The notes beneath the pieces were generated by a model, which was not told the origin of the DNA, ran no database searches, and was given only the letters and a program-made list of their open reading frames with translations. This document shows, one piece after another, positions 13,058 through 14,360 of a stretch of 64,000 bases of DNA. The position numbers and the translations under genes are program-made. This stretch comes from Chryseolinea soli (lineage in GTDB: Bacteria; Bacteroidota; Bacteroidia; Cytophagales; Cyclobacteriaceae): positions 7,564,001 to 7,628,000 of the forward strand of contig NZ_CP032382.1 in NCBI RefSeq assembly GCF_003589925.1, given 5' to 3'. How positions within the stretch are numbered: position 1 is the first letter of the stretch; each line of letters starts with the position of its first letter.

Positions 13058-13557
13058 TTGACGTTGGTCATACGTTCGAGCTGCTGGAGGTACTCCGAGT
13101 TGCGAGCGTCTGTGTTGCTGTCCACAATCAGTAAAATGATGGAAAGCAGAATGACCGTAATTCCGATTGCCCTCCAGGTGGTATTCGATACCAATATAAC
13201 CAGTAATGCCCCAAAGAGTATAATTAAGGGTAGCATTTTGAGCACCCTTGCCAGTTCACGTTTTGACTTCTGTGCCCTGGCAACCTCTTCTTTAATGAAG
13301 ACTTCTGAATCGGACCTGTATTCTTGTTCGAATCTTGAGATCCGGGGCATATTTGCCATGTATAAACCTGTCCCCACGGCGATCAGGAATAGACCGGCTG
13401 CCAGGAATGGCCAAATATAAGCTCTTGCCATTGCCGTTTTTCCGAAATAGGCAAATCCCGCCGAGGTGGCGATTACTAAGATGCTTGCAAGCCATACTAT
13501 TTTCGCTGAGAAAACTTCGGCTCTTGCCCAGTCGGTACTTAATTTTATTTCGTCCAT
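13054..13557 (-). CDS. Predicted integral membrane protein, partner of the AraC regulator
   Basis: A 167-residue protein with four likely transmembrane segments in two pairs: near residues 18-38 and 48-68, then near 110-125 and 130-145. A long charged cytoplasmic helix lies between the pairs (EEVARAQKSKRELARVLK). No family recognised. The stop overlaps the AraC start by four bases, an arrangement that suggests the membrane protein modulates or senses for the regulator; that is inference. Upstream lies the duplicated hairpin element. Confidence 0.72.
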   Translation of the reverse strand: MDEIKLSTDWARAEVFSAKIVWLASILVIATSAGFAYFGKTAMARAYIWPFLAAGLFLIAVGTGLYMANMPRISRFEQEYRSDSEVFIKEEVARAQKSKRELARVLKMLPLIILFGALLVILVSNTTWRAIGITVILLSIILLIVDSNTDARNSEYLQQLERMTNVK

Positions 13558-13657
13558 GGCTTAGTTCGTTGGTCGCACAAGTTTTAGAATTTAGCCGGCT
13601 ATTTCCTTGCTGTGCGGCTCAAATAATAGTTTCTATATGGCTCATCGGGTATAAATC

Positions 13658-13818
13658 CGAAATAGCAAAGTCCCCGAGGCGGGAGACTTTGCTATGGCGT
13701 GACACGCTATAGGGGAATGTATTGAGGCTACTTTCGTATCCTAAGGGCTGTCACTGTCCAAATCCAAGTCTCCCGCCTCGGGGACTTGGATTTCTCAACA
13801 GCGCAGTTACTATTTTAT
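13658..13818 (+). repeat. 161-bp structured element, copy 1
   Basis: First of two near-identical units 204 bases apart. Hairpin A has arms 13662-13672 and 13685-13695 (ATAGCAAAGTC) around the 12-base loop CCCGAGGCGGGA. A small hairpin (GCGTG-A-CACGC) follows. Hairpin B has arms 13760-13770 and 13783-13793 (AAATCCAAGTC) around TCCCGCCTCGGG, the exact reverse complement of loop A. Each loop can extend its stem by CCCG/CGGG, leaving one bulged base. The layout resembles REP/BIME or REPIN elements, although no REP-associated transposase is in the window. Confidence 0.85.
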
Positions 13819-13861
13819 GACTTGTCGTGAGTCGGGATTTATTTAGCGTCTAAGTCATATT

Positions 13862-14022
13862 CGAAATAGCAAAGTCCCCGAGGCGGGAGACTTTGCTATG
13901 GCGTGACACGCTATAGGGGAATGGATTGCGGCTATTTCGTATCCCAAAGGCTGTCGCTGTCCAAATCAAAGTTTCCCGCCTCGGGGATTTTGATTTCTCG
14001 AACAACGCAGTTACTATTTTAT
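13862..14022 (+). repeat. 161-bp structured element, copy 2
   Basis: Second unit, separated from copy 1 by 43 bases. Hairpin A is identical. Hairpin B arms are 13963-13973 and 13986-13996. Compared with copy 1, one C-G pair has become A-T (both sides changed) and two further changes turn pairs into G-T or T-G wobbles, so the stem is kept. One single-base deletion and one insertion balance, giving equal length. The right end contains the stop codon of the gene at 14019-14360. Confidence 0.85.
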
Positions 14023-14360
14023 ATCTCTACGTTCCCGGGGTGCAATATCTCATCAAAGATCTCATCAACCGCTCGCCGAAAAAAACGGCTATCTATATTC
14101 TCCAGGTCCAGATACTGTTCAGGGTTGTTGATCACGCTTTCCCTGGTCATCGACACAAAATTGCCCCATGCGGCAACGCTAAGGGTTTCGTGCTTATATT
14201 CCAAGAGTTGAATAAAAGGATATAACGAGGCATGGAGCCTATTTTTTTGTGTATTAAATTCATCCGTCATGGCTTCCAGGGATTTGGGATGGTCAATGTA
14301 GGAGTTTTTACGCTGCCAGGCAGATATCAAGTGTCTACTAATGTGCACCAAAAAAAACAC
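14019..14360 (-). CDS. Hypothetical protein, possibly a truncated gene
   Basis: A 113-residue frame with no recognised family. It is rich in charged and aromatic residues (TDEFNTQKNRLHASLYPF, then FFRRAVDEIFDEILHPG) and looks helical and soluble. Its TAA stop at 14019-14021 falls inside the right end of hairpin element copy 2, so the original C-terminus may have been replaced by the element. No operon partner is present. Real-gene status is uncertain. Confidence 0.4.
   Translation of the reverse strand: MFFLVHISRHLISAWQRKNSYIDHPKSLEAMTDEFNTQKNRLHASLYPFIQLLEYKHETLSVAAWGNFVSMTRESVINNPEQYLDLENIDSRFFRRAVDEIFDEILHPGNVEI

Follow-up and report, generated by a model that had tools for sequence, protein, structure and literature searches.

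A probable tandem pair of REPINs in Chryseolinea soli, from a REP family that accompanies one RAYT clade in related Bacteroidota

In the account of Bertels and Rainey (2011, PMC3116915), a REPIN consists of two REPs in inverted orientation that fold together into a single hairpin, REPs adjoin the genes of RAYTs (REP-associated Y1 transposases), REP singlets are remnants, and near-identical REPINs occur in tandem clusters that include flanking sequence. GTAG- and CGTC-tagged REPs are described as small dispersed palindromes, often present as dimers, and the CGTC repeats, which occur in Bacteroidetes, are given there stems of 8–9 bp, loops of 4–5 nt and no associated transposase (PMC3733652). 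The known enzymes are reported to act on one strand only and to use GTAG (PMC8266576), and REPINs are also reported from E. coli genomes that contain no RAYT (PMC8049555). For Bacteroidetes, TnpAREP proteins of subclass 2.6 were noted to have "atypical secondary structures" on their flanks, of which further copies lie at other places in the genome (PMC6006769). Our search of a limited literature collection returned this known REPIN/RAYT literature and nothing on extragenic palindromes of Chryseolinea or on REPINs of Cytophagales.

We analyzed a 64,000-nt stretch of the genome of Chryseolinea soli (hereafter the window; contig NZ_CP032382.1, positions 7,564,001–7,628,000). Judged by sequence comparison, two REPINs very probably lie there in tandem, and in relatives their REP family accompanies one clade of RAYTs (HUH/Y1 enzymes acting on single strands). 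A duplicated hairpin element had been proposed at this place in a preliminary description, and it proved to be real, with two units of 164 nt (92% identity, 11 mismatches and 2 gap positions) and hairpins at four positions. The features are as follows.

13655..13818, no strand assigned: tandem unit 1 (REPIN copy 1 plus right flank), 92% identical to 13859–14022
13662..13695, plus strand: left hairpin (REP) of copy 1, core on the plus strand, from covariance model and DNA fold
13760..13793, minus strand: right hairpin (inverted REP) of copy 1, core on the minus strand, from covariance model and DNA fold
13859..14022, no strand assigned: tandem unit 2 (REPIN copy 2 plus right flank), 92% identical to 13655–13818
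13866..13899, plus strand: left hairpin of copy 2, sequence the same as that of 13662–13695
13963..13996, minus strand: right hairpin of copy 2, with one pair swap, two core-strand mispairs and a weaker fold
13830..14005, no strand assigned: stretch of copy 2 common to the near-complete C. serpens copies (87% and 90%), the estimated mobile unit including a 5' module

Each unit consists of a hairpin with its core on the plus strand, a spacer of 63–64 nt and then an inverted hairpin, and the two units are 204 nt apart in their left part and 203 nt in their right part. The hairpin core is AGTC-CCCGAGGCGGGA-GACT, with CCC/GGG pairs, a single bulged A and 9 stem pairs that enclose a 12-nt apex with internal pairing of its own. 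The doublet form (13662–13695 and 13760–13793 are inverted and 64 nt apart), singlets as remnants, the link to RAYTs and the tandem clusters with their flanks are as described for REPINs in PMC3116915. Unlike those REPINs, the elements found here have another sequence, with the bulged AGTC/GACT stem and the 12-nt apex, and no cognate RAYT was found in the genome that carries the window. GACG, the complement of CGTC, was present just 3' of the stem in 37 of 150 hairpins, which recalls the CGTC REPs; the 12-nt apex and the RAYT link in relatives differ from the description of those repeats. The GTAG tag is not characteristic of the family, as it occurred within 20 nt on the 5' side in only 4 of the 150 hairpins; in its place there was a conserved 3' tail, with G at +12 in 134 and A at +13 in 111 of them.

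The whole unit was predicted to fold as DNA into one long hairpin (z −9.05), and for two intact window hairpins z ranged from −6.2 to −7.8, whichever strand was folded. The loops of paired hairpins are exact reverse complements, as had been pointed out, but this follows merely from the second hairpin being an inverted copy of the first; a kissing complex between them was rejected as unneeded, the whole unit folding as one hairpin. The stop codon at 14019–14021, within the right end of unit 2, does terminate a neighboring reading frame, but we rejected this "gene" as a conserved one: it is an orphan ORF whose one database match was an 83-aa protein, apparently from the same genome, and a Pfam search with it gave nothing above cut-off.

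The tandem unit sits between two same-strand ORFs, as might be expected if the hairpins were intrinsic terminators or mRNA-stabilizing structures kept for that role, their dispersal being incidental. In support of this, five terminator-like sites were predicted within 13500–14100 compared to 0.6 in shuffles, and four of them fell at the window hairpins, on both strands. However, the T tracts of the tails are poor, and such a role leaves the fixed loop, the inverted doublets and the RAYT link unexplained. We consider it very unlikely as an account of the element, although the window hairpins may act as terminators in a side role.

The REPIN reading was further examined by a covariance-model search of the genome and its relatives, which had been proposed in the preliminary description and which showed that the element is not single-copy. 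The model was built from 48 of the 51 distinct hairpins of the genus, the three without the AGTC/GACT core being left out, and its counts are lower bounds, with up to 150 candidates scored per genome. At least 30 hairpins, repeated and dispersed, were found in C. soli (G000, a single contig of 8.24 Mb), and at least 21, 44, 23 and 19 in four of five congeners (G001, C. serpens or G002, G003 and G004, respectively), whereas none was present among the candidates scored in the fifth (G005). The matches in G004 were weak (best 3.9e-5); this genome carries its own core variant. A BLAST search with the 164-nt unit listed 30 matches in C. soli, some of which were both strands of one hairpin. Inverted pairs less than 100 nt apart accounted for 10 of the 27 listed C. 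soli hairpins, and a second tandem pair was detected at C1:5362438-5362758, with a spacing of 202. Copies occurred in both orientations. Of 16 sites examined, 8 had no overlap with an ORF of at least 110 aa, and the other 8 overlapped putative ORFs. Near-complete copies were present at other sites in C. serpens (L222, 87%; L224, 90%). The first of these and L003 of C. soli (C1:8042455) look like one site, at which the left hairpin has been rebuilt round a new loop in C. soli while the spacer and the right hairpin are retained. The exact core was found in 10 of 295 genomes of the family and in 62 stretches of the genome_contigs collection, every one of which had a Bacteroidota title. At three loci of other Bacteroidota (L116, L133 and L157), the core stands at either end of some 316 nt of conserved sequence, the 3' sides of the hairpins facing outward; this is an extended version of the element.

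The resemblance to REP, BIME or REPIN sequences noted earlier was borne out in these relatives, in which the same core flanks a clade of RAYTs. When 17 genomes were searched with one RAYT protein, the core was found on both sides of four RAYT loci (L212, L214, L215 and L217) and upstream of a fifth (L216). Four of these core-flanked RAYTs were aligned (alignment A1) and searched for in the 295 family genomes, and the top matches were in G197, G225, G078 (Ohtaekwangia koreensis) and G212. All four belong to genus g74, in which the exact core and a RAYT of the clade (best E 1e-119 to 1e-127) were thus found together in 4 of 7 genomes; the other three (G130, G158 and G178) had neither a model match nor a clade-like RAYT. 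Hairpins were close to 24 of the 30 best clade loci compared to 0.32 expected from Markov resampling, a locus being counted if a GTC...GAC hairpin with at least 4 of 5 further pairs was nearby. Among 31 control loci (17 other RAYT and 14 IS200-like), one passed this test, L209 in G004, a genome that also holds a RAYT of the clade. At contig ends the flank was wrongly set on one side for 7 of the 30 clade loci (L234, L242, L245, L252, L256, L259 and L261) and for 4 of the 31 controls (L166, L178, L199 and L202); the positives among contig-end loci agree with separately listed hairpins. Of the six clade loci that failed, L260 and L261 carry related AGTT/AACT hairpins. Loops vary within the clade, with GTC/GAC constant. 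The 30 clade RAYTs grouped as one branch (99/99) in a 59-protein tree; 6 of the 29 non-clade rows had been labelled ahead of the hairpin test, and when tested later one of them (L209) was positive.

The link between core and clade also has exceptions. The exact core was present without a clade RAYT in G183, weak model matches without a clade-like RAYT in G139 and G021, and a clade RAYT (3.7e-74) without model matches or flanking hairpins in G293. G250 had a clade RAYT together with at least 6 model matches, and G278 had cores and a broken RAYT. A separate arrangement was seen at L246 (G004 C12:848504-849043), where two arrays of the core variant AGTCCCGGAGACCGGTGACT, which have spacings of about 125 and 220, enclose the clade RAYT.

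Two clade RAYTs matched the NCBI model of REP-associated tyrosine transposases (NF047646) over almost the full length of the model but did not reach the cut-off score (65.4 and 74.1 of 80), RAYTs of the clade also stayed under that of Pfam Y1_Tnp (19.4 and 21.7 of 23), and a PDB search with the clade profile gave no match at E 0.01. These proteins share the NHxH motif described for subclass 2.6 TnpAREP (PMC6006769). However, the aligned RAYTs have WK and YIH[ED]NP where the table in that paper gives WQ and YIH[QN]NP, so that assignment to this subclass is tentative, and the flanking structures of subclass 2.6 were compared with the REPs found here by description rather than by sequence. Because Bacteroidetes TnpAREP with flanking structures had been reported in that paper, the suggestion of an undescribed element holds for the REP family, which is new, but not for the kind of repeat, which is known.

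A RAYT-type Y1 transposase had also been proposed as a search target; such a protein of the clade was present in relatives as described above, but none was found in C. soli, which was searched with Pfam Y1_Tnp, one RAYT protein and A1. The Y1 matches in this genome, none of which lies inside the window, in agreement with the preliminary description, were an IS200-like gene (L031), a gene whose coding sequence is divided over two frames (L032) and a RAYT belonging to another clade (L205). All three were rejected as a cognate RAYT, L205 having other hairpins, and this other-clade RAYT was the sole A1 match at E up to 1 (8.6e-8). A1 gave no clade-like score in G001, G002 or G003 either (3.3e-20, 2.7e-15 and 0.03), whereas G004 has a clade RAYT at 1.7e-66. 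With no clade-like RAYT found in these four genomes (C. soli and G001–G003), their repeats look orphaned. As separate observations, L205 (C1:7716575-7716967) has hairpins of its own on its flanks, TTGTTGGTGAAGAACACCAACAA, which gives C. soli a second REP family, and the split gene L032 (C1:7482607-7482949) is followed by AACCCCAGGCTTTAGCCTGGGGTT hairpins.

The presence of IS200-like genes in C. soli is compatible with the hairpins being the termini of an insertion sequence, of IS200/IS605 type or another, with the window units as deletion derivatives (MITEs), and in some relatives (L116, L133 and L157) pairs of hairpins some 316 nt apart have internal sequence in common. Yet hairpins were near 0 of 14 IS200-like loci, and none of the annotated loci showed an insertion sequence with the core at its ends, which makes such an origin very unlikely.

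The stems of the REP family show paired changes. Among the 48 distinct hairpins, standard pairs made up 92.2% of pair cells compared to 83.3% in shuffles, both-side changes occupied 53 cells compared to 15.8, and covariation was 0.243 compared to 0.083, a value reached in 0 of 500 shuffles; 4 stem pairs had a both-side change at all, which does not exceed the shuffles (3.6). One stem position shows AU, UA, GC and CG. The C-G to A-T swap in the right hairpin of copy 2, which was as described earlier, is thus part of a general covariation pattern in the family. The two further changes in this hairpin, likewise correctly described as plus-strand wobbles, weaken its DNA fold from about −14 to about −7 and its RNA fold from −21.5/−22.1 to −13.9/−10.9. 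Its DNA fold has z values of −3.1 and −2.1 on the two strands, and as RNA the plus strand is better by 3 kcal/mol. Since the hairpin is weaker on both strands, these changes look like decay. Mispairs on the core strand over 148 hairpins comprised 36 A-C, which are wobbles on the complement, and 11 G-T. Of the 36 A-C, 18 fall at one stem position, and the count covers copies that share ancestry and includes one or more chance palindromes. We therefore rejected the plus-strand selection that had been proposed: the mispair count favors the complement of the core strand, and the changed hairpin has lost stability on either strand. Almost no credence can be given to a structured RNA, whether riboswitch-like or an sRNA, under such selection. 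Although the stems covary and, as RNA, the copy 2 right hairpin is more stable on the plus strand, the window had no Rfam match over the gathering score, the mispair count points the other way and copies are found in both orientations.

The flanks of the window locus had no DNA match in the genus, and we therefore used another site for empty-site comparison, that between the genes of TrhO and molybdopterin adenylyltransferase (NCBIfam names; trhO-moaB). This site has a doublet in C. soli and, in C. serpens, a single hairpin whose stem carries a paired change, and the element was absent from it in G003, G004 and G005; G001 was uninformative because the two genes are on different contigs. Flank identity to C. 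soli was 69–76% in G003–G005 and 91–95% in C. serpens, and from these values we infer that a gain before the split of C. soli and C. serpens, rather than a loss, is likeliest. In G001, a different long palindromic repeat, AGCATGTTCCCATCTG..., was observed beside the TrhO and molybdopterin genes on both contigs (L285 and L290).

If the window does hold a tandem REPIN pair, its copies would owe their spread to the action of such a RAYT on hairpins in single-stranded DNA, the RAYT would then have been lost from this lineage, and the second copy would derive from a local duplication that carried the flanks along. The element in C. soli is probably a fossil. We also put forward, as a speculative and rather doubtful proposal, that a RAYT clade spread through this bacterial family may recognize its REPs by the fixed AGTC/GACT stem, a clade-dependent loop and, where other REPs use the 5' GTAG guide, a 3' GGA tail, which would make the choice of cutting site unlike that of known TnpAREP, and that the Chryseolinea repeats may have outlived their RAYT and still multiply by local duplication. 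The missing GTAG guide makes the choice of cleavage site testable. Within one genus, G004 has the RAYT while none was found in C. soli and G001–G003, which would allow the persistence of REPINs after RAYT loss to be compared, and in Bacteroidota, where the flanking structures were called atypical, a definite REP sequence family is tied to a definite RAYT clade.
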